A stretch of DNA of 24,368 bases from a virus: IMG/VR virus record IMGVR_UViG_3300021093_000347, positions 1 to 24,368 of that record; one strand, written 5' to 3'. The first letter of the stretch is position 1, and every line of letters starts with the position of its first letter. Shown here piece by piece: positions 463 to 23,782 of this stretch. Under the pieces are notes generated by a model that saw nothing but the letters and a program-made list of their open reading frames with translations, had not been told where the DNA came from and searched no databases. The translations under genes were made by a program, and so were the position numbers.

Positions 463-3400
463 TACGCAAACGCAATTGCTCTAAGTTCTCTAATAATTGG
501 TGGTTCAGCTTGACTTGTGCCAACCATATCAATTTTAATCTGAAACTTAGTAAACGGTGGAAGAGCTCTAGAGTTAAATGAATAGTCTTTAAATTCAAGG
601 CCTAAACTCGGAGTCACCAATAGATCTGGAAGACCATTGTTATTTGATAAATTAATTATCTCTCCATTTTGATTAATATTTGTGTATCCAGGGAACAATT
701 CAAAGTTTTGATCAAAACTGTTTTCAGCTGAACCTTCAGAAATAATTTTATAGAATGCGCGAATATCACTAGTTGATCTTCTATAGGCAGCAAACTCAAG
801 TAAAATTTGAGTGGCAGGGCTATCAAGAACAACCATTTTAGAAACATATGTTGCAGCACAAGGATCTTGGCCAGTAATATTAACTGTTCTATCGGTTGCA
901 AAGTTTGTGACTGGATTATTAACTCTATTAGTGGTGAGAATGGTACTTACACGATCAATATCAATCACTGGAGAAACATCTGGATTACTAGAGCGTAATG
1001 CAACTTCAAAAGTCATTGATTTATTACCGGGCAATTCAGAGAGACTATCATTTTCATTCACTTTAGATGCAACCATTCTTGGATCAATAAAATGGTTTTG
1101 ACCAGCAATATCAACACTTTGGAATCCTTTATCTATAAATGACTCTTCAGATCCACTCACACTAGTTGCGCTAATTGTTCTGACCCTTGCAGACACTGTT
1201 GTGCCTGGCGGGGTCATTGTTTGAACATTGGGTGTGATAGTTTCAAACTGAATATTTTGAGTGGCTCTAATATTTTTTCCGCCGGCTCTTTTTGTAACAT
1301 TAAAGAAACAGTCTGGTAAAGTGCCGCTACTTCTGTCTGTACCGTCAGTATTCATGTTCAATTTAATGTGATAATAATCAAGATCTTTTTCATTTGGAAC
1401 AGTTGCGTCCGGATCATTCATATCATGTGTTTTATTGATCCTTCTTAATGAAATACCACCAAACTCATACTTACGGACTTCTGTACCAGAGGGATAAGTA
1501 AACGCTCTTGTATTATCGATACCTCTAGTTGTGATACCTGTGATTGAACCACTAGATGTCCCTGTATATGCAATAATTTCGTCACCAATTTTTAAATATC
1601 CGAAGTTTGTTGTTCCAACACCAACTCCCTCAAAGGTGTCGAAGTTAGAAGAAGAGACAACAGAAATATTAGCGGTTGATTCACTTGTATAATCTGTGGT
1701 TAAAGTTGTGACGGGAACATCAGATTCCACCCCAGAAATTTTCACTAGATTATTGAAGGCGTGCATCGCATGAGCACGATGATTGACTTTAAAATGTAAA
1801 CCATCATTTGTCGAATCAACATCAAACGTGCTGATGGTGCAACCATTTCCGATTACAACAACATTAGAACCATTATTAAAAGTGATTGTCCCCACACCAG
1901 TTATGAATGAACCTTGAATTTGATCAACAATAATTGTGTTTGTTGAAGTTACAACTCCAACGGCAAGGACAACACCATCACCATTTCCAAGTCCAAGTGT
2001 TCCAACACCTACAGTGTCGCCAACCGCAAAGTTTTTACCACCGTTAGTTACAGTAACTGCGGATATTTCACCGTTATTGACGGTCACGTTGCCAATCATT
2101 CCAGAACCTGATCCAGTTAATTTAGGTAATGTGATATTTGAATATACAAAACTTCCACTAGACGGAGTGTACCCAACACCAGGATTAATAATGGTAAGTG
2201 TTTGAGATCCAACACTTGCAATGCCAGCAGTGCTTAATAACTTTGCGGAAGCATTTGAGTTTCCACTCTGAGTGATTGTTACTCCAGGAACAAGACCAGC
2301 GGGTGAACCAAAGGTTGTTCCAATACCAATCACAGCTTTTTTGGATAGAATTTGAATGGCATTTTCTTCTAAAGTGATGATCTGATTATTACCCTCTGTC
2401 AAATCTGGATTAAAAAATCTTGCAACTCCGGGGGTTGTATCAAATCTAGCTTTATACAAAGTGAATTTAAGATCTTCATATTGACTAGGATCCCAAGTCG
2501 TACCATTTTGTGATTTAAATAAAGAACCAAGATATGGTTGTTGACTAATCAATACTCGTTCATTATCTGGAAGATTTGCAGTTGAAATATCAATTTCACC
2601 CATTCTAGAAATCCAAGCATTATAATTTTCTGATGGAGTTACCACAACAATTGCATATTCTTGTTCACCACTCAAATAAACTGGTGATGGAAATGTAAAT
2701 CTTGTTGGAATTGATGCATCATCGGATGTTCTAACATCCTTAGGTTCTTTGACGACAATACTGAAAGGTAGAATCTTTGATGTTGGAAGACCAGTTTCAA
2801 CTGTTCTAACTTGCATTGTTAAAGGTAATTCATCATCTTTATCTCTAAGAAAAACATCAACAGAGGTTAAGAAAGCTCCAGTTGTCTCATCAACTCTAAA
2901 TGTCTGCGCGAGAGGGTCATAATATTGAACGCCCGTAAACTCCGTCTGATCGTTACCTGTTGGCCTGCTGATTCTAGATTGAATAATTCTTTGATCTCTT
3001 ACAGTTAATCTTTCAATTTTAGGAACTTTAAGACTTAAAACATTTTCTTGAAGGGTTTGAAGTTCACCTTGAGCATAGAAATTAGACTCAGCTGATCCAG
3101 TCACAGTTCCACCAACAAGTGAGTTTGTAGAACTTGTGGTAAGTCTAAATGTTTTTGTACCAGTTTCCCATCTTGGATTAGCCTGAACGTTTGGATTTGG
3201 GATGAAAAAACAACCTTTTATAAATCCAAGAGAGTCTGATACAAAACGTGAATTAGAGACAGTCGCTTGGGCTCCACTCGTTTGGCCTCTTAATTTCATT
3301 CCATTTTGAACATATCCATAGAAACCACCTTGAACTTGAGTTGTAAGACTAAATGTATCAACATTTAAAAGAGTTGATGAGGTCGCGTATACTGTAGAAA

Positions 3401-8012: not shown

Positions 8013-9584
8013 TTAAAATTCCAATACGATTTTGATGTCTTCCTTTTGTTGTGAACTACGTGTGACAGACGCCCTGTTATCTACATAGATAATTTCTCCA
8101 CTATACTTTTCAACTTCTGGGTTTGCAACACCTTGAACAAAACTCATACCCAGGTTATATGTCCTATTATTTATTGAGGTTGAAACACCTGGAGTAGCTA
8201 ATGTTCCAAAGTTAGTATCAATATTTAAATTTAAAGATCCACCAAAAACAGTGGTGCCAGCACCAGATGTTGGTGAGGGTGTAAATCTAAACAACTTAAA
8301 ACCATATTGTGGATTAGTGTTAGCTGTCCCATCAGTATTAAAACCAGCAAGTCTACGATCTTGCCAATATTTGATAACACCAGTAGTTGAATCCCAGTTA
8401 ATGACTCTCCCAACAGCTGTTGACCCAATACCAATCTTCTGTGTAATGTCAGCGTCGGCTGCAAATGTTGTTGTAGTCGCACCAGCCCCAGTTAGTTTAA
8501 GCGCATAAGTAGCACTAGCTTTTGATATAGTGAGTTTATTTGTTGATCCAAATGCGAATGGATCTTTTACAAGACCAACTCTAGCAAATTGATTACCAGT
8601 GATAAAGTCTGGGTTTGTCACATCATTTTCAAGTCTTGAATAAATCAAAACTCGATACGCGCCTAATTCTCTATAGATGTCTGCCCCATGGCCACCTTGT
8701 GGTGGTATGATTACATTAAATGCAGCATCAGTTGAACCAGATGGATTAATTAAACCAACTGCAGTTAAATCAACTGTGGCAAATGTATATTCAGAACCAC
8801 CATTAGTTATTTCTACAGAGTCAATTTTACCCGCAGCATTAACTACAACAGAACATTTTGCACCATCTCCATCACCTTTAATTGGCACATTGTTATATGT
8901 TGTAGCGGTGCCATAACCAACACCTCTATTCGTAATAGTTACTATTTTTAATAGACCGCTAGTGGAAGAGTTATTTCTTACAGCAGCAACATCAGTGTTA
9001 GTTGACCAGTCTTGAGGAAGAGGAATAAAACTTGTTGAGTCAAATTTAATTAAATCATTTGGCTTAATTGTAAAAAGATATTTCCAAATATAACCATCAC
9101 CAGAGCTACCGGCAGATCTTGGTTCCAAGTCAGTAAATAAAGGTTCATCCAAAGACGGTCTACCACTTTGGTTTTCTGGATTAGTCCCGTTTTGAAGACA
9201 AATATAAACTCTATAATCAGAGTTCATCACATAAAAGTTAGTATCATATAAATTGGTGGAACTTGTTTGTGGGGAAATATTTGATCTAGAATAATCATGA
9301 CGATACATTTCATAGGTTGTGCCAGATGTCCAAGTAATTTTTCTTACCACTCTGGCAGCATCAGCTGCATTAATTCTTTTTAATGCAATCATCGTATCCC
9401 AATAATCATTCTCTTCATTGAATGAATCTTTGGGAGCTGGAGAAGCTGTATCCCAACTCGTATCAAACTCTGTCGCATTAGGAAGACCAATCCAAACGTA
9501 ATAACTATTGGTGGTTGATGCGATTCCTGTTACAAAATTTTGAGAATTTAATATACGAAGTTGATCAGTTATAATTGCTGACAT
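8013..9584 (-). CDS. 8: gp8 baseplate wedge protein with an inserted glycine-rich module
   Basis: At 523 residues this is longer than T4 gp8 (334). The match to gp8 is seen at SGDGYIWKYLFTIKPNDL (161-178), compared with GDGYVWEYLFEI in T4. The very C-terminus also matches: KYSGEIIYVDNRASV then QQKEDIKIVLEF, compared with SGEMIYMENR and EEINILFTF. The N-terminal half carries PAPKDSFNEENDYWDTMIAL (49-68), YRHDYSRSNISPQT (94-107) and YRVYICLQNG (124-133). gp8 is a dimeric wedge component that binds gp7 and gp6 in T4. The extra length includes a GxGY-type beta module at about 211-300 (VTITNRGVGYG and VEITNGGSEYT), and further glycine/threonine-rich sequence at about 345-480. The gene starts with ATG 28 bases after the giant gp7-like gene. 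It has a late-promoter motif in that gap but only a poor Shine-Dalgarno. Confidence 0.92.
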   Translation of the reverse strand: MSAIITDQLRILNSQNFVTGIASTTNSYYVWIGLPNATEFDTSWDTASPAPKDSFNEENDYWDTMIALKRINAADAARVVRKITWTSGTTYEMYRHDYSRSNISPQTSSTNLYDTNFYVMNSDYRVYICLQNGTNPENQSGRPSLDEPLFTDLEPRSAGSSGDGYIWKYLFTIKPNDLIKFDSTSFIPLPQDWSTNTDVAAVRNNSSTSGLLKIVTITNRGVGYGTATTYNNVPIKGDGDGAKCSVVVNAAGKIDSVEITNGGSEYTFATVDLTAVGLINPSGSTDAAFNVIIPPQGGHGADIYRELGAYRVLIYSRLENDVTNPDFITGNQFARVGLVKDPFAFGSTNKLTISKASATYALKLTGAGATTTTFAADADITQKIGIGSTAVGRVINWDSTTGVIKYWQDRRLAGFNTDGTANTNPQYGFKLFRFTPSPTSGAGTTVFGGSLNLNIDTNFGTLATPGVSTSINNRTYNLGMSFVQGVANPEVEKYSGEIIYVDNRASVTRSSQQKEDIKIVLEF

Positions 9585-9603
9585 TTGAAAAGACTTTTTG
9601 TTT

Positions 9604-9610
9604 TATTTAT
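9604..9610 (-). promoter_or_regulatory. Candidate T4-type late promoter (ATAAATA) before gp8
   Basis: ATAAATA, in the context ACATAAATAAAA on the minus strand, lies in the 28-base gap between the giant gp7-like gene and gp8, 19 bases before the gp8 ATG. This matches seven of eight bases of the T4 late element TATAAATA. A promoter here would let gp8 and the downstream tail genes be expressed independently of the 12-kb gene upstream. Confidence 0.5.
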
Positions 9611-9612
9611 GT

Positions 9613-12600
9613 TTAAATGTAGACCTCTTTTAAGTCTCTGGTTCTAATTATGACAGGTCCCGTTATTATACCTGTAACTCCATCGTTTTTAATAACAGAA
9701 AATTCTTTTGTATCTGACTTTACAAAATCGTGAAGACGACCCCAAGAATACTCACCAAAATTCTGACTGCTTCCAAGACTTACATTTGCAGTGGAACTAA
9801 CACTTACAGTAACTCTAGTAAGAGTAGTCACTCCAACTCCAATTGCACTACCAGACACGTTTTGAACGGACATAACTTTGTAAATATTGTCAATAAACGA
9901 AGTTCCAATACCAACAGTCGTAGTTCCAGCCGCATTTTCATAAGCGGTAAGACCACTACCAGTATTAGAGTTAAACACAATAAAGTAATAGTCTGTTTTA
10001 ATACCACTTGAAGTAATTGGAGTTGTCATTATAGATGATTTTCTGAGTGGAGAATCAAGAGGAATAAACAAATCAAATGTTAACCCCGTTGTAGCAATAC
10101 CAACTACAGAAGTAGTTCCAATACCGGTAATAATACCAAAGTCTCCTTCATACTTAACACTTGTCAGAGTGTCATCAGTTTGAGCTTCAGGTTCAATCAT
10201 CACAATTGGTGGGTTTGTATTAGTATACCCAGCCCCAGCATTTGTGATTGTTACAGAGGAGACGGTGCCTAAACCAGAGATAACTACAACGCCAGTAGCG
10301 TTAGTATTCATTGTAATACCAATACCAGAATGTATGGTTCCGATGCCAGCCGTTACGCCAATCGAAACTGTGGGAGCAGTAGTAAATCCAGCACCACCAT
10401 CGGAGATGATAATACTTGAAATTGTCCCAGCAGCAGATACCAGTGCTGTTGCAGCCACACCAATCTTAGTTGTTGCATCTAAAATTAAAACAGCCTGTTT
10501 GGTTTCTACAACATCATCAATTTCATTAAAGAGAGGGACAACGTTATCAACGAAGACTTCAGTCACAGCTGCACCGACACTCTTAATAATATAAGATACT
10601 GGCCTTATACCAGCCTCTAACTCTGGTCTATTTTTGGTAATATTAAAATTACCAATAATTAAATCTTGAAGTTGTTTCTTCCAAGTTACAGGTCTTAACA
10701 AGGATCTGTCAGTGATAATACCAACGTCAACATAAGTGTTAGTACTTACAGCATCAGATGTCGTAATGCCAGTGACTGTTCTAGGAAGTTGTTGATAACC
10801 ATCGATATATCCAAGATCAGGATATGAATTGATTGTTAATTGATCTCCAACTTTTACAGTCTCTAAAATATCAACTTCTACAACGTCATTATCTGAGCCC
10901 CGATAAAAATAAATCCTCACTTTATCGCCAGCCTTTGGTGCTTCAGAGAAAGTAATCTGTGATCCACCAATTAATTGATAACTTTCTGTTGGGATCTGAA
11001 GAATATCATTAACAAATATCAACATATTATCTTCAATTTTAATTGGAGACCCTTTTGCAGATCTGAGTGTAATTGGTGTGGCTGTGGCACCAACTGTCTT
11101 AGTAAGATTAAATATTTTTCTTACACCATCAAATAAATCTTCAAATGTGTTTAGTTTTTCAAGTTCACCAAATGTCCAACCTGAGAAACTATCATTAAAA
11201 GTTTCAGTGACCGTTAATCTGAATGAAGTGAATGCAGCTCCAACAGATGCGTCAGTTGGCACACCAGCTTGACCGTCAGTTTCGACTGATAACACGTCTC
11301 CGATCTTAAAATTACGACCATAGTTTGTGATGTTAAAACTGATCACACTCTTTGCAAGTCCAACAATAACAGAAACAGAGGCACCGACACCAGTTGGACT
11401 ACCAACTAATTTAATATTTTCGTAATTTAATGGATTTTCAAATACTAATGTTGGTGGATTTGTGGAAGTAAATCCAGAACCAGGATTTGTGATTGTCACT
11501 GAAGTCACAATGCCTGCGGTCACATTTGCGCGACCAATGGTGACGATTCCAGAACTTGTAATCGCTTTAACAAGAATATTAGTTTGAACACCAACTCTAT
11601 AACCAGAACCACCATTACCAATTGAGACAGAGGAGATGGTTCCAGCAATTGATACAACTGCTGTGCCTCCTGCAGAGACTAGAGGTTGATAACCAAACGA
11701 ATTTGTCTCCGCAACAGATACAATAATTCCACCTCTAGGAATAGAGGAAACATTTACATCATAACTTACAGATACACCAGCTCCAGTAAAACGGATTGAA
11801 GAAATACCCGCAGTTTCAGTAATAACATAATCATCTGGAGAAGCCGGGTTTTGAAAAATTTCATTAACCAAAATGACACCATTATTGGTTGCAAATCCAG
11901 TTACGTTTTGACCCTCAGACTTAAGAATAAATGAAGATGCAATGCCCGTAAATTGATTTTCAAACGTGTCAAAAACATGATTATTTTTATAGGTATCTTG
12001 GTTACCGTTTGGAATACCAGTTCTAACAAATGCTCTGGCTGTAAAAGTAGATGTTGTGGTCAAACCAGTCGGCCCTTTTGATCCCTTAGGTGGATCAGTG
12101 AAGTTAATAGTGTCTCTAACAATCTGATAGTTACCAACGTATTTTGTAATTGTAGCTCCAGCACTATGATTTGCAAGAACCGAGTTGAGTTGAGCTCTCT
12201 TTACAAGAACAATATTTGTGCCACCAATGCCAATTGTATCAATTTTCATAAATTCATCATCAATCTCAATAATATCTCCAGAGAAGAACGATGAAATACC
12301 TGCCATTGTAATAAAATCAGTTGTGGTCGCAACAGAAGTGCTAAGACCTGTATTAATTGGTGATTGAATAAGTGGGCTCTGAATGTTGTTATCGAGCGTC
12401 ACCAACATTTTAGAGTTTAGATTTCTTGATGTAAATGAGTGAGTTGTGCCTACACCAACAGAAGTGATATCAAGAACAATGGGGACAGTTAGAAGTGCAT
12501 TAGTAGCACTTGTCGCAACTCTGAACTTATTCTCTGCAATTTTAACTGCATAAACTGTGGAAGGAAGTTTATCTGTGGTGCCAAACCCAACAATAGAAGT

Positions 12601-15600
12601 TGTTCCAATACCCACACTCATTGTCGTTCCAGCACCAGTTGGAGTGTAGGTTAATTCTTCACCGGTGGTAAAAAAGTGATTATTAATAATAAATTCATTG
12701 TTTGTAGGGTTAACTACACTACCACTTGATGCATCAAAAATCTTATGGAAAACAGAATCTCCTCTGTGTTTAAGATCAAACGAAAAGACAATATCATTTT
12801 CTGTTCCTGTATAAGATCCATCTTCAGATACAAGTTTTGAATTTGTAAAAGTTCTAATTCCAACACCAGATCCAGCAGTCTCTGTAAGATTATACTGAAA
12901 TACCTTGGTTGTAACAGCAGTGCTAGCTGGCGGAGTTAATCTTAATTCTAAGTCTGGGCCAGTTGAAGAATAACCAACACCAATCGTTCCAATCCCGGCA
13001 CCATTGAAATTATTAAAACTTGCATATTCATTAAAGTATACATTGGTTCCATCATGAATTATAGTCACCTGAGTGACTTCATATCGATTGTTAGTTGTAT
13101 CATGAATCTGAATTAGACAATCTGCAGCTCGAAAAGTATTAGAGGAGAATCCACTGATGCGAGTTGCCTGTGGCACAGTTGTAGAACCAACGGATGTAGT
13201 TGTGGTTAGAATTTGAGATGAGGAGATTGTTGTGCTACCAATACCGGTTGCAGAGGAATCAATTGAGGTCTGATGCACTCTCATCGTTACACCAACACCA
13301 GAGAGTGGTGTAAAATAAACACTGGTGATGCCTGATCTCACATCAGCACCAAAAGTCCCAAGTCCAACCGATGGAGAGTTGGTGATCGAGGTATTCTCGG
13401 TTATCATCTGAGCATAATCAAGTAAGTAAGCCTCAGTGCCATCTTGAAGGACAACAAGTTCATTAATTTGATGTCTTTGATCTCCTGTGGTTTCTGTTGT
13501 TTCAATAAACAATTTGGTTGTAGTAAATGTTGATGTGTTAAATCCTACAACTTGGAATGGAACTGGTGATGTTGCTGATGCAATTCCAGTAGCTGTTGAG
13601 ATAATCTTATAACCCGTTCCAATCTCAGTGGATCCAATGCCACTCTGAGAGTTAATGAGTGTCTGTTGAGATAAAACTCTTAAAGCATAGTTATTTGTTG
13701 TAGATTTTGCTGGAACAAATCTAAGAGAACCTGTGGAACCAGAAATACTAAAATCAAAAGTTCCCAGATCAATTTCTGTTTCAACTCTGCCAAAAGGCAT
13801 GATGAATCCAGTTGAGCCATCATGGATTAAATTAACTTGAATAATTTCTTTTTCGCCACTGAATCTTCTATCAAAAACAAGAACATAGAATTTAGCACTT
13901 CTTATTTGATCAATATCAAAAGAAGCAATATCAGAAAATGCAGTTGATCTAGGCAGATCATTAAACTCAGAACTAACACTATCAATTGAAATGGCTCTAT
14001 TCGTTCTAGATTCAATATAATCACTAATAATCTTTCCATCAAAACGAATTTCATCAGAGGCAACAACTTGATCAATACGAAGAGAATTTTCTGAAACTAA
14101 ATCAAAATCATATTTACTATGGACAGATTCTTTTTCACTAATAAGATCAATAACAATAGATACAACATCAGTCCCGACACCAGGTTTAGCGGTTCTTCTA
14201 TTTTTAGAATCAGTTGAAGCTGTAGATATAATATTAGTATCTGCAAAATTTTTAAATCCAACAACGTGACCAAGACTATTAACAGGATCTCTCCAAGTTG
14301 AATATTGAACTTGACTCTCTAATGAATAAGAAAATAACTGATAATAATCATTATCTTGTAATCTTTGTAGTTCGTCACTTAGTTTACCGGTTTGTTTTTG
14401 CCAACCGTTTTTAACTTCAGAAGTTGGATTGATATTAAAACTAGATTCTAGTTTAGTTGCCTCTTGAATGACGGCAACTGATTTAGATGATTGACCACTA
14501 ATTGAATCATTAATCTTGAAAGTATCACTGGAAAGAATCTTAACATACTTGTTATCTGGATTCCAGTTTACAACAATACCCGATTTATCACCGGTGCTTA
14601 CAGTTTCTCCAATACTAAAATTATTTGGTTCTGTCGTAATTTTAAAGATTGGTAAATGTTCAAAAGGAATGACTCTACCAGATGAAGATGATCCACTAAA
14701 AATACCAGGGTTAACGACTGATGAATCTAAGTTATAAGAAACGGTTGCATTACCACCACCAATGTTTGTGTTAACACCTGTGATTGTAAAGAACTTATGG
14801 CCATAATCTTTCGAATTATAACCACTGCCAGTTGACCCGATCCCAATATTTTCAACGTATATTTTTCTACCTAATACAAATGGATAAGTGGATGTATTAA
14901 ATCCAGTTGTTCCACTTTCAAGAGTTAATGTCACAAGTCTAGAAGCACTCGTATAAGCTAGATTTGTAATTTTAATTCCATTTGTATTATTAATTGTTAA
15001 TACCAGTGGTTCAGTATCATAAAGATTTTTCGTATTTCTAAGGATATTAATTTTCGAAACTGATGTGCCTTGAATCTCTGATGTGGCCAAAATGTCATTG
15101 TTAACCAATCCAGTTACTCTATCCACAACCACAAGATTTGGTGGTTGAATATAATTTCTACCACCTGAAGTGATGCCAATATTGGAAATACCAGATAGTC
15201 TGTTTAATCTTAAAATTTGAGGTAGTTGAACTGATGGTTGAATTGTCTTATCAGCAGAATAATCAAACCCAATATTTTTAATTGTATACTTTCTAAGGAC
15301 ACCAATTGTGTCACTGCTAAGTTTAATAATGCCACCGACACCAGAGGTTGATGCGATAGATGTTACTACTGGAATACTCTTATAGTTCTTACCTTTTGAT
15401 ACAATTTGTAGTTTATCAATTGAACCATCAACTCGTGCTGATGTTGTAGAATAATTAAGTATAGTGGCTTCTGCAGTTGTATATGAATCTTTTTCTGGTT
15501 GAGAGGGAATATTGAATGAAAATGTTGTGCTTCCGATTCCAGTCACTGAAAATTCACCATTATATTTACTTTTGGATACATCTAAGGTTGAGTGATTGAT

Positions 15601-18600
15601 AATATCAGTATCGATAACAGGATTCTTTCTGGTGTTTGAAATGATATCTAAATTTATAGGATCAAGTTTGTAAAACAATTGTTGTGGAGTATTTTCATCA
15701 ACAGACAAGTTTACCACGGCAGTGGTTGTTACACCTACTGTTCCAACACCAATGACTTTAAACGCGCCTTCTTCTGGATTGGAAAAATATGGTTTAGTGA
15801 AGTTTACATCTCTATAGAAATTGAGATTAAAAACTTGTTTTCTTTTTCCGGATAAAACTTGGCCAAGGCTTGTGTCGGATACAGCAAATCCAACTTTATA
15901 TCCACGGACAATCTCAAGTCTAGGATTAATAAGGCCAACTTCATGATTAGATCCAGAAGAACTAATTCCAATTGTATCTGGTATTAATTTAGTTGACTTG
16001 TAATATGTCTCTGCGAGTCTAAACGTATTTTTATCATCTCGAACAATAAAGTAAATTTCATTGTTAACAAGAGGAACTGCTGGATTAGTTGACGTATAGA
16101 GAATCTTCTCACCAGTCTTATATCCGTGATTATTGATTGTAATTGAATGACTATTTGTATTAATTCCAGCTGATCCAAATGTTTTCGGATTTACAATCGT
16201 TCTGTTTGTGGTTTCATTATATCTAATATAATAAGACGTTGTAATACCTGGGGTAACAGATACATAAACTTTATCATTTTGAAGTAACCCATGTGGTTCA
16301 GAGCAAACCACTGTCCCTACTACCTTTTCAACAAAACCTGTAATTTCAGTATTTTGTGGCTTTAGACTATGAATAACACCTGAACCATGGCTATTAAAAA
16401 ACAATCTATAAGCAGTGGATCCAATACCCGTGATTGCTCCAGTTGAACCAATACCAAGTGGATTTGTTGAAATACCTAATAGATCTTTTCCAGCATTAAT
16501 TGCATAAACAAAGGAATTATTTGGTAGACTAAACGTAGAAATCCCATTATAAACTTGAATAGAATCCCCCCCACCATTGGAATAAATCAGTTTTTGGCCA
16601 TCGACAAAGTTATGATCTGGAAGGTAAATATTTTGTGTTAAAATAAACTTAGTTGTGGATCCTCCACCAACAACTCGAAATGAATAAGAAATGGTTGAAC
16701 CAATTCCTACTCCTGTTGTTGTCCCCAAAGCTAAACTCTCTAGTGGATTAAAATAATATGGAATATTTCTATTTGTGATAACATTCGTATTAATACCGAT
16801 ATTAAACTTTATAGTTCGATTCAAGACAGTAATAATAGACGCTCCACTGTGAGCGGTGCCAAGAACACCATCATATTCTCTCTGAACACGAATTTTATTA
16901 TTGATAGCATCTACATTAAGAACTAACATTCTTTCTGAAGAAATACCAATGATATCATTTGGAGCAATATTACTTGGATCTAAATTACCACTAACTGAAA
17001 TTCTAGTGACACTACTGGTTAATCCAGTTGATCCAATGCCAGTGTTAAGTGACAGAAATGCTGTATTGAATCCAATGACATGTCTTCCATCAAGTCTTTT
17101 GAGAGAGTCTGTGGACAATCCTGAGACGGTTATAACGTCACCAACCACTAATCCATGTGGTTGACTAGAAAAACCAGTTACACCACCGGTAAAGTTATCG
17201 TATTCAAAAACAATGTTGTCAATTTTGACAACAGTTGATGCTATTGATACAATATTTTTTCCACCAACTCTAGAAATTTTTCCTGCAAACCCACTTCCGC
17301 CACCAACGTTGTTTATTACAAGTTGTTCATTAACTCGATACCCAGAACCTGCGTTTTCTATTTGATAATTTTCTATTCTACCAGGAGTAGCATAATTAAC
17401 CTCAGTCTCTTGAAGAGTTGATTTTCTACTATCATAGATGCCCTCATATGAAACACCTTGACTATCAAGTTTATATGGATAAGTGTTTCTTCTAAGATTT
17501 AAAGTATTAAGATTTTTATAATCTTGATTATTAGTTTCAACAAAATTCCAATCATCTGGTTTTGCAGAAAATCTATCGCCAATTAGATAAGGAAATACAG
17601 GTGAACGAAAATTTTTAAATACACCACTAGTTTCGTTTCGATTAGGATCAATTGTTGCAAAATAAGCATAGATACCATTTGGATAATCGGGGGTAATGCA
17701 GAAACGCCCATTGTTTCTATCGAGATCTCCATTACCAATAAACTCATAGTCATCGACAAAAAATCCAAGAGCAAATAAACTGACCGCAGGGCCATTCTCT
17801 CTGGTTGTTTTTAATGAATATCCAGAACGCATAATCCTAACAGTGCCGCCATCCTTTCTATCATATCCATATGGTCCATAAATTGGATTACCATCATATG
17901 CCCATCCAATAATTGGTGAGTGAGCACTCATCGTCTGTTCAGAATTATTAGAAATGGTTAAATCATTTTGTGCGTAGTCAGATGTGCCATCATTATTTTT
18001 TTGTTTTAAAATCTTTCGAAGAGCACGAGGAGCATAGAGTGTTGTAAATTTCATTCCAATGTCGTTATCACCTCTAGTTAAGAACCCATCATCTTGCCCA
18101 AAAATTTCTTTATATCTCTGAACATTATCAATGTTCCAGCTGCGAACTTTGGTTAGAAATTTAACTCCCGATCCAGGAATAGATTCAGACACAGTGATTT
18201 TAGATGTTGAATATCCAACACCACCGTTAACAACATTTACAGCAGTAACTTGACCATTTCCAATCTGAGCAATGATTTTTGCGCCGACACCATCACCAAA
18301 TATTCTTAGATCTGGTGGTGATGTGTATTGTGTGCCAGACTTAGTAATGATGACTGACTGAATTTTACCATTCTGAACAATTGCCTTATATTCTGAAGAA
18401 GATCCAGATGATACTCTGACTGTAGGAGGAATGGTAAAATTTAAAATTGTGGAGGATCCGTACCCGACTCCAGATTCCTCCACGTTAATTGATGTAATAC
18501 TGCCCCTTACAATTGGATTTACAACAGCATGATAATTTTCAGGAGATATTGTATTAACACCAATTGTACCTTTAACGTTAACGGTGATTGGTGGATAATT

Positions 18601-21600
18601 AAAGATATGGTTTCCAGATCCAACAGAGGTCAATCCAACATATTGACCCGTAATATAATTTATGTCGGATAAAGTAGATCCAATACCAGCAGCAGCTAAT
18701 CTAAATTGACTATCATTTATTTTAATAACATAATATTCCTGAGTTGTATTGAGTCCACCAATATTGATACCATCATTAGAATATCTTATGAGATCCCTGT
18801 CTTTAAAATCATGATTTGCATATTCTATATAATCCAAATAAGTATTAATGCCTGACGTTGGGATTAATCTTCTTTTATTTTCATATCCCTCTCCAGGATT
18901 CTCAATAATGATTTGAGAAATAACTTTCTTTTTCTCTAAGCTTTCAAATCTCTGTACACCATCAGCAAACGCAGTGATATTAAGTAAATTAGTTTTTGTT
19001 AAAGCTTCATCTTCAGTGTTAGCAAGTTTAATCGTTAATGCGTCAATTTTAGAGACAAAATAAACCGATTCATTAATAAGTCTTCTATCTGGGCTAGTTT
19101 GAATACCAGAAACACCAGAGGTGCTAGCGATGCCAATTGAACCAGTATTTTCAAAAGTTCTATAAATTACCGCCTCACCATCTCTAAACTTATGAAACGT
19201 GGTGAACCCAATTGTATTATCACTGATATTGATTCTACCACCGGTCGCAGATGCATCAAAATCAATGAAGTGATCAATTTCTTTTAACGTTGATCTTGCA
19301 ATTGCATTTTTGCCATTACCTCCAGTAATCTCAATTAAAGGTGGATCAACATAATCAAATCCAGGATTAATAATATCAATACGTTCAAATAAACCTTTGA
19401 CATTAGCTGTAGCTGTTGCACCTACTCCAGTTGTGCTTTCGATTGTGACTGTCGGTGGGGTGATAACATCATATCCAGAACCACCCTCTAAAACATCGAT
19501 GGATTTAACTCCACCATAAAAAATAACATCACCGGATTTATAGTTTAAAATTTCTGTGCCATTGATTAAGATACCAGTGGTTCCAGGAATTGTTTCATAT
19601 TGTTTTCCATCAAATAATGGATTTAATGAAATTCTCTTTAAAAGTTTTTGATGTTCTAATTTTTTATTTGTAAGAGTCGGAACAGAAATCTTAAACGTGC
19701 CACTACCAGCCGCACTAACATAAGTGCCGTTAACAAGATCTGAGAGAGAATTTGAAAGTTGAATTTCATTTGAACTAACACGATTGACAAAATAATTTTT
19801 CCCATCAACTAGGTTACCGAGATAACCACTAATCACGTTAAATGTGACAACTTCACCAGAGTAAAATCCATGATCGTTAGCCCCAGAGGTGACCTGAATA
19901 AGTTGAATTACATCTCCACCGGTCGCGCCAGTCCATGTGATAGATCGATCTGAAGCCGTGATTGGCTCTTGACCAAGACTTGGGATCGATGAGGCAGCTA
20001 CATAAACGTGAGGATCAGGTGAAACAGCATTGACATTGTTACTTTCATGATCATAACTATTTTGAATGTCAGTTGTATACTTAGTAATATTATCATGAAT
20101 CACACTTACACCACGATTTATATTTCTTCTTATGAATTTAACTTTTGATGCATCAACACTAGGCAGCTGCCCTAAAACAAAATTATTAGTACTGGTCACA
20201 GCGCTAATTTTACCCACACCAAGAACACTTGATGCATCATTTAAAACCTCTATAAAATCATTTTCATAAAAATCATGAGATGATGTTGTGCTGACGTTAA
20301 ATGAATCTACACTTACTTGTTGAAATATAGTTGGGGTATGTTTAACACAGACATTATGCACCCAAGAATTAAATTTAACATCTTGTAGACTCTTATTAAC
20401 TCCTAACGCACCAACTCTAATTTTGTCTCCTTTATTAAAATAGAAAGTATTATCTGGAATTTTAAAATCCGCAAGAACGCCAGTGATTAATACTTCAATT
20501 TTTTGAGTTGAGCTACCAGCGGAGTATCCATAAGCAACATTTCCATATTTCACTTCGTCACCAATTTCATACGCAATTGGCATTGTCGCCAACCCAGTAA
20601 ATTGATTGATTGTCTTTCCCGAGTAAGTTGCAATACCGCTAGTGCTGAGATTCAGTTTGCCACTTGTTGGGAAACCAACCGTAGTGTCTACTGTGAGAAC
20701 CGTAGCCCCCACTGAAACTGCGTTTGTGAGTCTAGTCCTGCCTGGGATTACAAACGTGCCCTCTGTTGAATCTTTTGTAATACTGATTTGATAGTAATTT
20801 TCCCCACCATAGAGAAATTCTTTAACATCAGAAATGGCACCAGACGCGCCGGTGATATTTAAGTCTTCGATATCTTTATCTTGGAATAAACTAGATCCTT
20901 TTAAAGCCCTTGGATCACCCGTTATTTTTTTAACAACAAAATCTTGAGTGATACTGTAATCAGCATCAGATGGCTTAAATAAAAACTCTGACGGTTTTAT
21001 AACATTAATTTCTTCACCATATAAAGCTTTGAATAAAATTTTATAAGATTCTGTTGTGCCTTTTGTTTTATAAAAATCCTTAATTTGTCGAATAAATTTT
21101 ACTGAATCAATATCGCTATCTAAAGTTCTATTCTGGAACCCGTCAGCAAAAGTAATCTTCAATTTGTTAAAAAATTCTCTCAAGAACAGATTAGAGAGAT
21201 TATGAACTTTTGTACCGCCAGTATGTGCAGCTCCAATTGTTGATTTGAAACTTAAAAGATCGGGCCTTGTGGTTTGATCAAGTGAATCCACACCACTGAA
21301 TCCACGAATACATCCTGTAAACGATGTCGTCCCGATCCCAGTATATGTGATAATTTCATTATCAATTTTTAAGAGACCATATCTTTCAGGCCAACCTTGT
21401 GTGGTTTTAACGTAAATTGTAGTTGAATGAGACTCTGTGTCCGTAGAGAGTCCTGTAAATTCACTTAAAGCTGTGCCAACGTATGTTTGTAGTTTAGTGT
21501 ACTTATCAATATTTTCTCCAATATCAACCGCCGCTCCTTGGTATTCCTGTGAAACATAATATTGTTTCATAAATTCCACAAAAAGTGGATTTTCACTCTG

Positions 21601-21669
21601 AACAAATTCAGGTAATTGATTTTCGATTACCTGACTGATTTTAACTCTTTGGAGGGAGGTATCGATCAT
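9613..21669 (-). CDS. 7: Giant gp7-like baseplate wedge protein (4018 aa) with repeated modules and a YHYH-type domain
   Basis: This is a single uninterrupted frame of 4018 residues. The N-terminus (about 1-240) has ENQLPEFVQSENPLFVEFMK (16-35), LFLREFFNKLKITFADGF (161-178) and FYKTKGTTESYKILFKALYG (199-218). These match the conserved C-terminal segment of T4 gp7 as I remember it (SNFEAFCEAYIQYLS, then FYSTKGIEASYKFLFKVLYN). Its place between gp6 and gp8 is that of gene 7, whose product nucleates the wedge. Downstream are about 15 glycine-rich modules (GxGY/F, for example about 730, 1064, 1150, 1439, 3353, 3814). There are also about nine N/D-H-x-F/Y-x-x-G-D/E units, a YHYH-type domain (about 1190-1370), three tandem ~117-residue units (about 2584-2934), and a LFDGVRKIFNL/FVNDILQIPTESY segment (about 3505-3600). 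T4 gp7 has 1032 residues and lacks these. ATG start with AGGA 9 bases upstream, 22 bases after gp6. The peripheral arm or host-contact role is inferred. Confidence 0.85.
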   Translation of the reverse strand: MIDTSLQRVKISQVIENQLPEFVQSENPLFVEFMKQYYVSQEYQGAAVDIGENIDKYTKLQTYVGTALSEFTGLSTDTESHSTTIYVKTTQGWPERYGLLKIDNEIITYTGIGTTSFTGCIRGFSGVDSLDQTTRPDLLSFKSTIGAAHTGGTKVHNLSNLFLREFFNKLKITFADGFQNRTLDSDIDSVKFIRQIKDFYKTKGTTESYKILFKALYGEEINVIKPSEFLFKPSDADYSITQDFVVKKITGDPRALKGSSLFQDKDIEDLNITGASGAISDVKEFLYGGENYYQISITKDSTEGTFVIPGRTRLTNAVSVGATVLTVDTTVGFPTSGKLNLSTSGIATYSGKTINQFTGLATMPIAYEIGDEVKYGNVAYGYSAGSSTQKIEVLITGVLADFKIPDNTFYFNKGDKIRVGALGVNKSLQDVKFNSWVHNVCVKHTPTIFQQVSVDSFNVSTTSSHDFYENDFIEVLNDASSVLGVGKISAVTSTNNFVLGQLPSVDASKVKFIRRNINRGVSVIHDNITKYTTDIQNSYDHESNNVNAVSPDPHVYVAASSIPSLGQEPITASDRSITWTGATGGDVIQLIQVTSGANDHGFYSGEVVTFNVISGYLGNLVDGKNYFVNRVSSNEIQLSNSLSDLVNGTYVSAAGSGTFKISVPTLTNKKLEHQKLLKRISLNPLFDGKQYETIPGTTGILINGTEILNYKSGDVIFYGGVKSIDVLEGGSGYDVITPPTVTIESTTGVGATATANVKGLFERIDIINPGFDYVDPPLIEITGGNGKNAIARSTLKEIDHFIDFDASATGGRINISDNTIGFTTFHKFRDGEAVIYRTFENTGSIGIASTSGVSGIQTSPDRRLINESVYFVSKIDALTIKLANTEDEALTKTNLLNITAFADGVQRFESLEKKKVISQIIIENPGEGYENKRRLIPTSGINTYLDYIEYANHDFKDRDLIRYSNDGINIGGLNTTQEYYVIKINDSQFRLAAAGIGSTLSDINYITGQYVGLTSVGSGNHIFNYPPITVNVKGTIGVNTISPENYHAVVNPIVRGSITSINVEESGVGYGSSTILNFTIPPTVRVSSGSSSEYKAIVQNGKIQSVIITKSGTQYTSPPDLRIFGDGVGAKIIAQIGNGQVTAVNVVNGGVGYSTSKITVSESIPGSGVKFLTKVRSWNIDNVQRYKEIFGQDDGFLTRGDNDIGMKFTTLYAPRALRKILKQKNNDGTSDYAQNDLTISNNSEQTMSAHSPIIGWAYDGNPIYGPYGYDRKDGGTVRIMRSGYSLKTTRENGPAVSLFALGFFVDDYEFIGNGDLDRNNGRFCITPDYPNGIYAYFATIDPNRNETSGVFKNFRSPVFPYLIGDRFSAKPDDWNFVETNNQDYKNLNTLNLRRNTYPYKLDSQGVSYEGIYDSRKSTLQETEVNYATPGRIENYQIENAGSGYRVNEQLVINNVGGGSGFAGKISRVGGKNIVSIASTVVKIDNIVFEYDNFTGGVTGFSSQPHGLVVGDVITVSGLSTDSLKRLDGRHVIGFNTAFLSLNTGIGSTGLTSSVTRISVSGNLDPSNIAPNDIIGISSERMLVLNVDAINNKIRVQREYDGVLGTAHSGASIITVLNRTIKFNIGINTNVITNRNIPYYFNPLESLALGTTTGVGIGSTISYSFRVVGGGSTTKFILTQNIYLPDHNFVDGQKLIYSNGGGDSIQVYNGISTFSLPNNSFVYAINAGKDLLGISTNPLGIGSTGAITGIGSTAYRLFFNSHGSGVIHSLKPQNTEITGFVEKVVGTVVCSEPHGLLQNDKVYVSVTPGITTSYYIRYNETTNRTIVNPKTFGSAGINTNSHSITINNHGYKTGEKILYTSTNPAVPLVNNEIYFIVRDDKNTFRLAETYYKSTKLIPDTIGISSSGSNHEVGLINPRLEIVRGYKVGFAVSDTSLGQVLSGKRKQVFNLNFYRDVNFTKPYFSNPEEGAFKVIGVGTVGVTTTAVVNLSVDENTPQQLFYKLDPINLDIISNTRKNPVIDTDIINHSTLDVSKSKYNGEFSVTGIGSTTFSFNIPSQPEKDSYTTAEATILNYSTTSARVDGSIDKLQIVSKGKNYKSIPVVTSIASTSGVGGIIKLSSDTIGVLRKYTIKNIGFDYSADKTIQPSVQLPQILRLNRLSGISNIGITSGGRNYIQPPNLVVVDRVTGLVNNDILATSEIQGTSVSKINILRNTKNLYDTEPLVLTINNTNGIKITNLAYTSASRLVTLTLESGTTGFNTSTYPFVLGRKIYVENIGIGSTGSGYNSKDYGHKFFTITGVNTNIGGGNATVSYNLDSSVVNPGIFSGSSSSGRVIPFEHLPIFKITTEPNNFSIGETVSTGDKSGIVVNWNPDNKYVKILSSDTFKINDSISGQSSKSVAVIQEATKLESSFNINPTSEVKNGWQKQTGKLSDELQRLQDNDYYQLFSYSLESQVQYSTWRDPVNSLGHVVGFKNFADTNIISTASTDSKNRRTAKPGVGTDVVSIVIDLISEKESVHSKYDFDLVSENSLRIDQVVASDEIRFDGKIISDYIESRTNRAISIDSVSSEFNDLPRSTAFSDIASFDIDQIRSAKFYVLVFDRRFSGEKEIIQVNLIHDGSTGFIMPFGRVETEIDLGTFDFSISGSTGSLRFVPAKSTTNNYALRVLSQQTLINSQSGIGSTEIGTGYKIISTATGIASATSPVPFQVVGFNTSTFTTTKLFIETTETTGDQRHQINELVVLQDGTEAYLLDYAQMITENTSITNSPSVGLGTFGADVRSGITSVYFTPLSGVGVTMRVHQTSIDSSATGIGSTTISSSQILTTTTSVGSTTVPQATRISGFSSNTFRAADCLIQIHDTTNNRYEVTQVTIIHDGTNVYFNEYASFNNFNGAGIGTIGVGYSSTGPDLELRLTPPASTAVTTKVFQYNLTETAGSGVGIRTFTNSKLVSEDGSYTGTENDIVFSFDLKHRGDSVFHKIFDASSGSVVNPTNNEFIINNHFFTTGEELTYTPTGAGTTMSVGIGTTSIVGFGTTDKLPSTVYAVKIAENKFRVATSATNALLTVPIVLDITSVGVGTTHSFTSRNLNSKMLVTLDNNIQSPLIQSPINTGLSTSVATTTDFITMAGISSFFSGDIIEIDDEFMKIDTIGIGGTNIVLVKRAQLNSVLANHSAGATITKYVGNYQIVRDTINFTDPPKGSKGPTGLTTTSTFTARAFVRTGIPNGNQDTYKNNHVFDTFENQFTGIASSFILKSEGQNVTGFATNNGVILVNEIFQNPASPDDYVITETAGISSIRFTGAGVSVSYDVNVSSIPRGGIIVSVAETNSFGYQPLVSAGGTAVVSIAGTISSVSIGNGGSGYRVGVQTNILVKAITSSGIVTIGRANVTAGIVTSVTITNPGSGFTSTNPPTLVFENPLNYENIKLVGSPTGVGASVSVIVGLAKSVISFNITNYGRNFKIGDVLSVETDGQAGVPTDASVGAAFTSFRLTVTETFNDSFSGWTFGELEKLNTFEDLFDGVRKIFNLTKTVGATATPITLRSAKGSPIKIEDNMLIFVNDILQIPTESYQLIGGSQITFSEAPKAGDKVRIYFYRGSDNDVVEVDILETVKVGDQLTINSYPDLGYIDGYQQLPRTVTGITTSDAVSTNTYVDVGIITDRSLLRPVTWKKQLQDLIIGNFNITKNRPELEAGIRPVSYIIKSVGAAVTEVFVDNVVPLFNEIDDVVETKQAVLILDATTKIGVAATALVSAAGTISSIIISDGGAGFTTAPTVSIGVTAGIGTIHSGIGITMNTNATGVVVISGLGTVSSVTITNAGAGYTNTNPPIVMIEPEAQTDDTLTSVKYEGDFGIITGIGTTSVVGIATTGLTFDLFIPLDSPLRKSSIMTTPITSSGIKTDYYFIVFNSNTGSGLTAYENAAGTTTVGIGTSFIDNIYKVMSVQNVSGSAIGVGVTTLTRVTVSVSSTANVSLGSSQNFGEYSWGRLHDFVKSDTKEFSVIKNDGVTGIITGPVIIRTRDLKEVYI
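10200..11660 (-). repeat. Cluster of GxGY/F beta modules in the C-terminal part of the giant
   Basis: Five copies of the glycine-rich module lie here: IGNGGSGYRVGV (~3353), ITNPGSGFTSTNPP (~3398), ITNYGRNFKIGD (~3449), ISDGGAGFTTAPT (~3760) and ITNAGAGYTNTNPP (~3814). Each follows a stretch of the type G-x-I/V-S-S-V-x-I. Two copies are still similar as DNA: bases 11451-11515 and the matching stretch from about 10206 agree at about three quarters of aligned positions, which indicates duplication. Confidence 0.7.
12870..13920 (-). repeat. Three tandem ~117-residue modules in the giant gp7-like protein
   Basis: Three consecutive units begin near residues 2584, 2706 and 2836. Each has an aromatic/beta lead (KFYVLVFDRR, KLFIETTETT, DCLIQIHDTT). 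This is followed by a strand and turn of the type QV.IIHDGT (IIQVNLIHDGST, INELVVLQDGTE, VTQVTIIHDGTN), an E/D-Y/F segment, a GTFG or GTIG turn, and a strand ending in a F/L-x-P step (LRFVPAKS, VYFTPLSG, LRLTPPAS). The order is constant in all three, so they are a true tandem protein repeat, although the DNA is diverged. Confidence 0.72.
17550..18100 (-). other. YHYH-type domain inside the giant, with a YAYF signature
   Basis: At residues 1247-1270 the protein reads MSAHSPIIGWAYDGNPIYGP followed by YGYD. A GDLDRNNGRF motif follows at 1314-1323, then TPDYPNG.YAYF ending at 1337, and FPYLIGDRF at 1359-1367. This is the order of the YHYH domain family (H..G.A.DG.PIYGP, then DLD..NGRF, then Y-H-Y-H, then FPY..G). 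Here the name-giving Y-H-Y-H is Y1334-A-Y-F1337, so both histidines are replaced, while H1250 and D1259 remain. The domain function is unknown in general. Confidence 0.75.
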
Positions 21670-21691: not shown

Positions 21692-23782
21692 TTAATAATA
21701 GGATGAAGACGAACCGCCAGAGGAGGATCCACCAGAGGACGAACCACTAGAGGATGAACTACTGGTTGTCGATCCACTGGTCGTTGAACTACCAGTAAAT
21801 GAACTACTGGTTGCTGAGGTGCTAGTTGTCGTGTTAGAAACAGCTATGTTTGAAGTTGCAGTTGTTGTCGTTAATGCACTAGTCGTAACTGGTGATAATG
21901 ATTTTCTTGTGTAAGTTGGAGTATTGTAACTTGATTCTCTTGTAAATCTAGATCCAGAGGTATTTTCACCAGATGATATAATATCCTGAATCATTGTCAA
22001 TGAAGTGTTTGTCATATCAAGTTTGACATACAAATCACGCAGACCAACTACATCGTTGGAGTGTGGCACGGCTTGCACTTCAATAACATTATTTGACACT
22101 GAGGTAAAAAGAATATTCACAGTATCTATAATAATTTCACCAATGTCATATTTAACTATGCCAGCATTTTTTTTAATAATGTTCGGCACTCCTCCCTCTG
22201 TATAGGTAAAGAAGAAGATACGACCTCGATCCTTATCAATGACCTCATCCGACATATAAACGAGATCAGGAACTCCATTAATTCTAAATCCAGTTGAAGT
22301 GACGTTGTAAGATGACTCTGCAACGTGGAATCTATTTCCAAAACAAAGTTCATACTGAGCAAACTTACTAATCTCTGCATTTAGATTTCTTCTCATCACA
22401 ATTCTTGTAATGTTTGATGTGATCGAGGAGTCAACTCCATCAATCAAAGTTTGTGTTTTACTATACTTAAATCTACCACCAAACTTATTCACATCGATCG
22501 AACGTGAATATTGAGTTAATGCACTTGAAACCAGACTGCTTAAATTATTTGGATCGTCACTAAAGTTTGTGTTATAATAAATGAATGATTTTAATTCAAC
22601 ATACAAGTATTTTAGATCAATAAATTCTGGCACAATACCCGCGACGGCATAATTTTTTAGTTTTTGAACTAATTCTCTCTTTGTATTATCTGATAAAAAA
22701 TCACCATTTCTTGGTTTTGCTGAGATAAAGACTTTTCCAAATTTTGGCGGAGTCAACTCCTCTCCACCGTAGGCAGTGACAGACTCGATATTCGGATAAA
22801 TGTATGCAAGAACAGCTTCATAGTCAGAGGCAGTAACTGCCCGATATTGAGAGGAGTAAATTCTTGGAGCATAGTACTTAATTGATGAAATTGACTCAAT
22901 TGTGTCTCCATCTCTCGATGATTGATCTGTTGATACCAAAGAAATCTTATCTGGATCGATCACAGAGTTGTCTTGATCAACAATATTACCAACAAAACTA
23001 AATTCTGCAGCTCCGTTACCCTCTTTCCCTGATGTAATGATGTAAGTAATGGTAATATAGTTGTTATTACTAAGTTTTTTACCAATTACGCCGTCTCCAA
23101 ACAAAATTTCATACTTTTCATCCTCAATTTCTTGCAATAAGTATGAAGAAGACGTAGAAGTGATGCCAATAACGTTATCAAGTTGTTTATAAGTGATAGA
23201 AGTTGATGAATTTTGTGTTGGTTTAACTTTTACACGTATAGTTGATGTGTCAATGAACGAATTTTGAAGAATATAACGTTGATTATACTGTGCGGTATTA
23301 ACTGTAAAGTTCTGAGTAATGAAAGAACCCTCGTAAATTTCAATTTCGTTGAATTTTGCGACTCCATCAACGACATTGACGGTAATATCCTCTGGAAGTG
23401 AGAATACATACGTTGTATTTGCTGCGATACCATTGCAAATGATACCTGATTTGAGTTTAAGAGTGACTTTACCAGTTAGTCCAGTCACACTAAACGAAAT
23501 TTTTGCTCTGGCGGATCTAGTTGATCGAGGCACATAACCAATATTACGAGCCAGAGAGACAACATTTTCTCTTAATGTAGCGGAATCGAGAAAACTTTCG
23601 TTCACTGCCATGTTTGTATTGTAGGCAGTGATATAAGTGTTATATGCCAGAGCATCAATGATGATCGAAAGGTTTGAACCTTCAAAATCGTAGTCAGTAA
23701 AATTCGAATTCGCCCTCAGATAGTCTCTGATTGACGTTTTAATTTGATCGAAGTCTAAATTAACGTACTGACCGAAAGTCAT
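21692..23782 (-). CDS. 6: gp6 baseplate wedge protein with a Ser/Thr/Gly-rich C-terminal tail
   Basis: This is a 696-residue wedge protein; T4 gp6 has 660. The N-terminus matches T4 gp6 strongly: TDYDFEGSNLSIIIDALAYN (33-52), then an ESFLDSATLRENVVSLARN helix and IGYVPRS. The middle has the gp6/J-type features YEILFGDGVIGKKL and an ASDYEAVLAYIYPNIESVTA segment followed by FGKVFISAKP. gp6 dimers tie neighbouring wedges into the inner baseplate ring and bind gp25 and gp7. The ATG overlaps the gp25 stop (TAATG), so translation is likely coupled and wedge stoichiometry kept in step. The last ~95 residues (about 602-696) are unlike T4: they turn into pure Ser/Thr/Gly, ending in SSSYY, and are encoded by a 15-bp tandem repeat. 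This tail is probably disordered and may be a linker or surface-exposed tag. Confidence 0.95.
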   Translation of the reverse strand: MTFGQYVNLDFDQIKTSIRDYLRANSNFTDYDFEGSNLSIIIDALAYNTYITAYNTNMAVNESFLDSATLRENVVSLARNIGYVPRSTRSARAKISFSVTGLTGKVTLKLKSGIICNGIAANTTYVFSLPEDITVNVVDGVAKFNEIEIYEGSFITQNFTVNTAQYNQRYILQNSFIDTSTIRVKVKPTQNSSTSITYKQLDNVIGITSTSSSYLLQEIEDEKYEILFGDGVIGKKLSNNNYITITYIITSGKEGNGAAEFSFVGNIVDQDNSVIDPDKISLVSTDQSSRDGDTIESISSIKYYAPRIYSSQYRAVTASDYEAVLAYIYPNIESVTAYGGEELTPPKFGKVFISAKPRNGDFLSDNTKRELVQKLKNYAVAGIVPEFIDLKYLYVELKSFIYYNTNFSDDPNNLSSLVSSALTQYSRSIDVNKFGGRFKYSKTQTLIDGVDSSITSNITRIVMRRNLNAEISKFAQYELCFGNRFHVAESSYNVTSTGFRINGVPDLVYMSDEVIDKDRGRIFFFTYTEGGVPNIIKKNAGIVKYDIGEIIIDTVNILFTSVSNNVIEVQAVPHSNDVVGLRDLYVKLDMTNTSLTMIQDIISSGENTSGSRFTRESSYNTPTYTRKSLSPVTTSALTTTTATSNIAVSNTTTSTSATSSSFTGSSTTSGSTTSSSSSSGSSSGGSSSGGSSSSYY
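21711..21830 (-). repeat. Eight 15-bp tandem repeats coding the gp6 tail
   Basis: Eight consecutive 15-base units run without gaps (starts 21711, 21726, 21741, 21756, 21771, 21786, 21801, 21816). On the plus strand most begin with GA(A/T)C and continue with (C/T)(A/G)C followed by an AGAGGA- or TGGTTG-like half. Because 15 is a multiple of three the frame is kept. The units encode TTSTS, ATSSS, FTGSS, TTSGS, TTSSS, SSSGS, SSGGS and SSGGS at the C-terminus of gp6. The units drift gradually from TT-type to SG-type along the array, as expected from stepwise duplication. Confidence 0.85.

Follow-up and report, generated by a model that had tools for sequence, protein, structure and literature searches.

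The stretch of DNA analysed here (the window) is the 24,368-base virus record IMGVR_UViG_3300021093_000347 from IMG/VR. It is the baseplate cluster of a T4-like phage, with all named genes on the minus strand. Our subject is a short glycine-rich element, the GxGY unit, that recurs in three neighbouring proteins of this cluster: a giant protein at the gp7 position, gp8, and a protein of the DUF4815/VrlC type. The genes are arranged as follows.

23782-24180, minus strand: gp25
21692-23782, minus strand: gp6
9613-21669, minus strand: giant protein at the gp7 position, 4018 residues (the giant)
8013-9584, minus strand: gp8, 523 residues
462-8006, minus strand: DUF4815/VrlC protein, 2514 residues

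Kyanoviridae such as P-SSM2 are annotated with the same gene order, the giant being named gp7 there. The closest phage record to gp8 among the matches listed is an unannotated marine record (63.8% identity) and the closest annotated relative among them is Bellamy (59.3%); gp8 matches the Pfam family Phage-Gp8 (PF09215) at 42.1 bits against a gathering score of 25, as do 47 of 48 relatives at E<=1.

The GxGY unit is about 43 residues long and mostly occurs in pairs, sometimes three together. A strand leads into the GxGY/F turn, followed by a short strand (often via a proline or GD), a glycine-rich loop and a further strand. Thirteen units of at least 6 bits were found in the giant by profile scan, along with two weaker ones near residues 917 (5.9 bits) and 2272 (0.7 bits), in keeping with the 'about 15' copies of a preliminary description of this DNA. 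The first half of the pattern given there, [IVL]x[IVLF]xxxGxG[YF], matches the giant 9 times (mean 0.26 in 500 shuffles) and gp8 and the DUF4815 protein once each (shuffle means 0.018 and 0.06), with no match in gp6 or gp25; a looser form occurs twice in gp8 (residues 215 and 257) and twice in DUF4815 (residues 1937 and 1984). Spacing between the two gp8 units is 40-44 residues in all 34 pairs scored, and among giants 195 of the 237 spacings below 200 residues fall between 35 and 59, a further 155 neighbours lying at least 200 residues apart. The copies considered below are:

8685-8972, minus strand: gp8 insert, residues 205-300, two GxGY units with motifs at residues 215 and 257
1791-2426, minus strand: DUF4815 block, about residues 1861-2072, without counterpart in pelagiphage VrlC
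about 1941-2210, minus strand: two-unit module inside the DUF4815 block
19264-19512, minus strand: giant doublet, units from residues 720 and 760
18124-18501, minus strand: giant triplet, units from residues 1057, 1102 and 1140, upstream of a YHYH domain
17251-17379, minus strand: giant single unit from residue 1431 (11.8 bits in one scan, 6.2 in another)
15064-15423, minus strand: giant pair, units from residues 2083 and 2160
11221-11640, minus strand: giant triplet, units from residues 3344, 3387 and 3441, holding the second copy of a 14-base match discussed below
10138-10425, minus strand: giant doublet, units from residues 3749 and 3802

That one beta module is common to the giant, gp8 and DUF4815, as first proposed from the bare sequence, is borne out by profile comparison. 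A profile built from 12 giant copies scores 20.2 bits against gp8 (domains of 7.4 and 13.7 bits), where the best domain in 200 shuffles of gp8 reaches 5.4, so that the reported gp8 copies stand. The same profile gives 10.5 bits against DUF4815 (domains 5.9 and 8.2) with a best shuffle of 8.5, and so the single DUF4815 sequence lies at background level; of 76 DUF4815 sequences taken singly, just 20 are matched at 7 bits, which counts against its inclusion. Profiles of orthologs rescue it. Full-length DUF4815 and gp8 ortholog profiles have their sole significant alignment at the module (E 1.1e-7, probability 94; next probability 1.5), over 57 columns and with probabilities of 94-98, and this settles DUF4815 membership. 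The DUF4815 insert also aligns to 161 giant doublets (probability 97, E 1.3e-10), as does the gp8 insert (probability 96), and the motif is visible by eye in most of the 37 distinct rows of DUF4815 relatives. These alignments show the GxGY unit to be homologous in the gp7-position giant, gp8 and DUF4815/VrlC. The unit is short and of low complexity, and unrelated Pfam beta families give stray matches to it, so that convergence of glycine-rich beta-hairpins has to be weighed against homology. We consider it very unlikely: a single shuffle of each of 1,577 stop-to-stop open reading frames (ORFs) from 85 loci produced no match of at least 8 bits (unshuffled, they give 63 such matches in 25 ORFs outside the three families), and both the constant pair spacing in gp8 and the 57-column alignment with DUF4815 speak for common descent.

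Existing resources already touch on this relationship. The PHROGs assigned here are 438 (gp8), 2885 and 701 (giant), 460 (head closure Hc2) and 358 (DUF4815 protein); 460 and 701 each recognise gp8 as well as the giant, and 438 also reaches the giant, at 1092-1163. The library profiles thus already show the cross-matches, but the families are whole-protein ones in which the module is neither separated nor named. No shared module is named in the titles and abstract openings among the literature matches listed, a search whose coverage lies outside subscription journals and bioRxiv. A search of known structures with the module profile returned chance matches alone (E 0.22 and above, the best being antibody light chains), and phmmer searches with gp8 and the giant matched T4-type gp8 and gp7 outside the module and otherwise kinases at E 0.14 and above.

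The module behaves as an insertable domain, since pelagiphage VrlC lack the block and T4 gp8 has no counterpart of the gp8 copy. In an alignment of VrlC from HTVC008M, 25 of 42 long pelagiphage VrlC (one being HTVC008M again), the window and four cyanophage-type relatives, 25 of the 26 pelagiphage rows have 9 residues opposite 96 in the window (the 26th row ends earlier), whereas the cyanophage-type rows have 93-96; the site is flanked by conserved EDLK..LYKA and KINH..HGM stretches. The gp8 profile aligns to T4 gp8 only at 3-192 and 484-517, either side of the insert, which upholds the earlier remark that T4 gp8 lacks it, as does the absence of profile matches from the T4 record. The preliminary description had gone further and envisaged a mobile or exchangeable module. 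Insertability is supported by these comparisons; recent spread is not, for copies are not more alike within a genome than between genomes. Units in relatives have their best match in the window unit at the same syntenic position in 345 of 366 cases (giant C-terminal units 190/196, gp8 85/94, DUF4815 70/76), a count that covers 9 of the 17 window units and excludes units with fewer than 30 aligned residues (4/200 in the giant, 0/94 in gp8, 18/94 in DUF4815); the giant's eight N-terminal units enter only the comparison with the best paralog. In that comparison a match from another genome outscores the best paralog in the window for all 17 units, although for DUF unit 1980 this best match is a gp8 unit. 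Among relatives below 55% identity the ortholog scores above the best own paralog in 20/20 and 16/20 cases for gp8, in 24/27 and 14/27 for DUF4815, and in 27/27, 20/27, 26/27, 18/23 and 21/27 for the giant; for DUF unit 1980 ortholog and own paralog draw at long range. On these comparisons, different proteins have gained or lost the module as a domain, and each copy has since evolved in place. The copies are old and fixed, consistent with an ancient promiscuous insert; neither within-genome conversion nor recent mobility is supported, because units keep to their syntenic position from genome to genome.

What had suggested exchange of copies by recombination or gene conversion was a 14-base match between gp8 and the giant:

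8792-8805, minus strand: 14-mer in gp8, codons for NGGS (residues 261-264) plus one base on each side
11604-11617, minus strand: 14-mer in the giant, codons for NGGS (residues 3352-3355) plus one base on each side

The match is exact at both sites, as reported, and 0.00 such matches are expected from shuffles. In both genes the reading frame is the same, T AAT GGT GGT TCT G. Two NGGS copies would be identical in DNA with probability 0.018 given codon usage, and GGT GGT is used in 5/5 of the NGG/DGG motifs examined against 15/48 GG pairs overall, a mild excess that could be taken in favour of exchange. We rejected the 14-mer as a trace of DNA exchange, because the NGGS peptide common to both genes, together with codon preference, suffices to explain it. 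With synteny followed so closely and other genomes supplying the better match for every window unit, exchange within the genome is extremely unlikely.

A structural model points to a possible relative. The AlphaFold model of gp8, built with 48 gp8 sequences, has a mean per-residue confidence (pLDDT) of 84.7, with block means of 81-91 over residues 211-300, and as a whole matches the T4 gp8 structure 1n7z at Z 19.6. Predicted strands of the insert lie at 214-219, 228-237, 243-248, 254-261, 269-271 and 288-292, with a helix at 273-276. The best structural match of the insert is Domain I of the T4 sheath protein gp18 (PF22639; PDB 3fo8, 3foa), an inserted all-beta domain of about 90 residues: insert residues 213-294 superpose on gp18 99-187 at Z 5.8 (root-mean-square deviation 2.9, 74 residues aligned, 19% identity). 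T4 gp18 is matched in three entries, and among the 50 matches listed the only others confined to the insert are the sheath protein of a Klebsiella phage at Z 4.8 and, much lower, a chain from an S-layer (Z 2.4). T4 Domain I has six strands and a helix (PMC3004832), the arrangement predicted for the gp8 insert; like Domain I, the module is inserted inside its host protein, in gp8 relative to T4 gp8 and in DUF4815 relative to pelagiphage VrlC. The two differ in location, Domain I sitting in the T4 sheath and the module in gp7, gp8 and VrlC. A viral structure library searched with the gp8 model returned mainly gp8 relatives, then a gp14 neck protein, a fibre and other cyanophage structural proteins, a ranking that fits a shared module, though the list gives no aligned ranges. 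A model of giant residues 3320-3870 (41 sequences) is poorer, with mean pLDDT 66 and a predicted template-modelling score of 0.33; its triplet reaches 71-89 by block, with strands at the motif positions.

There are also traces of the likeness in sequence. T4 gp18 Domain I begins I-x-T-P-G-S-N-Y-x-x-G-D, like the module motif. Residues 98-121 are where the T4-family gp18 profile aligns best to the giant doublets (34.1) and to the DUF4815 insert (32.7), the best of 60 column shuffles giving 19.2 and 20.4 respectively; this control is lenient because shuffling columns also destroys strand patterns. Among 813 T4 ORFs, gp18 ranks first with the doublet profile. An alignment of seven gp18 (six of them S-PM2-like) scores 36.4 with the DUF4815 insert, 33.4 with that of gp8 and, with the giant doublets, 25.4 (P 0.011), and S-PM2 gp18 is itself matched by the module profile; alignment confidence between the S-PM2-like sheath insert and the T4 Domain I site is just 0-2. 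The Pfam model Gp18_dom_I (PF22639) has matches at the module in HTVC008M gp7 (10.1 bits) and OLIVR5 gp8 (10.5 bits), both below its gathering score. The Kyanoviridae sheath was tried as a bridge and rejected, a 43-gp18 alignment scoring 14.5 against the giant doublets with nothing seen.

Several results weigh against this relationship. The Z of 5.8 is below the level that the tool treats as telling and may reflect just a common arrangement, and gp18 is absent among the 50 matches listed for the giant model. The gp8 insert scores 21.5 against the gp18 profile, barely above its best shuffle (20.6); gp18 reaches only E 0.38-0.78 in T4 with the doublet profile and two others, comes second to an unannotated ORF with those two, and with the 12-copy profile falls outside the top four. 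The Gp18_dom_I gathering score of 27 bits is reached by T4 gp18 alone (126.2, the control); no match is listed for the window proteins, sub-threshold matches occur in 2/27 units (best E 0.0087), 2/41 giant segments and 1/48 gp8, and neither Kyanoviridae sheath scanned is matched, while the unrelated FlgD_tudor matches 13/41 giant segments (best E 3.9e-5; none is listed for the window segment). Its second GxGY sets T4 gp18 apart from the 14 other distinct relatives aligned, which lack it, and a unit above 4 bits is present in only 4 of the 80 gp18, that of T4 among them. The sequence support is suggestive only, and a Domain I-like fold is suggested by the gp8 model. We call the module gp18-Domain-I-like and not a member, because of the E-values of 0.38-0.78 in T4 and a Pfam model below cut-off everywhere except in T4 gp18; with moderate confidence, we regard the resemblance as a useful lead. 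Two observations on the sheaths themselves may be recorded. Within gp18 Domain I the T4 record AF158101 has TGKNYA (row L180, residues 147-152), where 14 other relatives lack NY, a variant or a sequencing difference; and the S-PM2-like sheaths (rows L181-L186) have a GxGY unit within a variable stretch that yields no match in most of the 80 sheaths scanned.

In T4, Domain I protrudes without a role in gp18-gp18 contacts and binds the baseplate and the retracted long tail fibres, and the substitutions G106S, S175F and A178V inhibit fibre retraction (PMC3004832). The three mutated residues jointly fit the T4 sequence only when the first Met is left uncounted, and G106 is accordingly the glycine of the TPGSNY motif. 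We hypothesize, at a probability of roughly 0.5, that T4-like marine phages use the all-beta domain of two or three GxGY units for docking, as a promiscuous surface knob inserted into virion proteins. Knobs on gp7, gp8 and VrlC would face the outside of the baseplate, where retracted fibres or adjacent wedge proteins would dock on them, the GxGY loop lying at the contact or close to it. This role is drawn by analogy with T4 gp18 Domain I, and docking is the weak step of the explanation. The 'interlocking decoration' mentioned in the preliminary description comes close to it, in that the nearest fold of the gp8 insert docks fibres and baseplate.

Whole-record scans of ten phage records with profile A2 were positive in eight, with 17 matches in Bellamy, 16 in S-PM2, 12 in P-SSM2, 5 each in DLP6 and S-H34, 4 in OLIVR5 and 3 each in HTVC008M and BUCT-ZZ01; the T4 and phiM7 records gave none (T4 at E<=0.01). 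Annotated carriers beyond gp7, gp8 and VrlC are the gp14 neck protein, the gp5 hub-lysozyme, a tail-fibre-like protein and the S-PM2 gp18 sheath, and unnamed large proteins also carry the unit. The observation is real and wider in scope than first noted, and the idea of a module spread within one baseplate does not hold.

In 80 pelagiphage-type contigs, which are partial genomes scanned as forward ORFs of at least 150 residues, units of at least 8 bits occur in 57/63 gp7 and 79/81 gp8 and are absent from gp6 (0/55), VrlC (0/80) and other ORFs (0/236); in agreement, matches in the full HTVC008M record are confined to gp7 and gp8. Such a restricted pairing would suit a homotypic clasp, in which the wedge is held together by knobs of gp7 and gp8 (also of VrlC, in phages that have it there) binding one another, fibre docking playing no part; T4 gp8 does contact gp7 (PMC3004832). 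The gp7-gp8 pair is not universal, however, because gp8 of S-PM2 and S-H34 has no match although their gp7-position protein and VrlC do. The unit also occurs in neck, hub and fibre-like proteins, and in the account cited above the T4 knob does not touch other gp18, so that we think a clasp rather unlikely.

Tail-fibre-like and very large carriers invite a different reading, along the lines of the carbohydrate binding suggested in the preliminary description: the module would bind sugars of the host surface, as exposed, repeated beta domains plausibly might. Early mutations in the evolved phage S-PM2d fell in gp8 and four large ORFs, 081, 084, 088 and 218 (PMC9910659), and the S-PM2 counterparts of these four ORFs carry units. 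Yet large ORFs are large mutation targets, the mutations are placed by ORF only, and S-PM2 gp8 itself has no detectable unit. Pfam scans of the window proteins, units, giant segments and gp8 found no known sugar-binding family, which does not exclude binding, and sugar binding would leave the neck copies unexplained; we regard this reading as quite unlikely.

Finally, the unit may be no more than a structural spacer: a beta stack, readily inserted, that would make virion proteins longer or stiffer and have no specific partner. Units have been added in tandem and are scattered through the giant, and the giant's C-terminal segment ranges from 525 to 749 residues among 52 relatives (551 in the window). 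On the other side, 48 gp8 that range down to 24% identity all keep G221, G237, G239, G263 and Y266, beyond what a spacer would call for, although the fold by itself might demand these residues; GSGY and GxGY are likewise invariant in 41 giant segments. A spacer is doubtful, if not lightly set aside.

A close known parallel is the promiscuous immunoglobulin-like domains, small beta domains scattered as accessories over unrelated phage virion proteins. The likeness is that of one small accessory beta domain in unrelated proteins; the sequence signature differs from GxGY, and when the units, gp8 and the giant segment were scanned, every Ig-like Pfam family stayed under its cut-off, with a Kre9_KNH match coming nearest. 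It is tempting to speculate that T4 Domain I exemplifies a more general docking knob, inserted in the wedge (gp7, gp8, VrlC), hub (gp5), neck (gp14), some sheaths and fibre-like proteins of marine T4-like phages, a single recurring interaction surface from neck to baseplate that would position folded-back fibres along the tail, though we hold this broader proposal to be unlikely as it stands. Little has been explained about the giant gp7-position, VrlC and tail-fibre-like proteins of cyanophages and pelagiphages, and a recurring, excisable domain offers a handle on them that can be compared with a solved T4 domain. The T4 genetics, in which a Domain I glycine is needed for fibre retraction, would become a testable general rule for contractile phages.

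Other features of the cluster lie beside the module. Downstream of the triplet that begins at residue 1057, the giant has a YHYH domain (PF14240, E 2.1e-24) at residues 1245-1343 (17641-17937). Between its last triplet and doublet, about residues 3498-3591 (10897-11178) have a predicted fold like the N-terminal domain of T7 gp17 and further attachment domains of tail fibres or necks, with Z values as high as 7.7. In relatives L039, L041, L047, L082 and L087 the giant's C-terminal segment is 712-749 residues long, against 551 in the window. Gp6 ends in a C-terminal tail of about 95 residues (21692-21985), rich in Ser, Thr and Gly, that lies past its PHROG-matched part.

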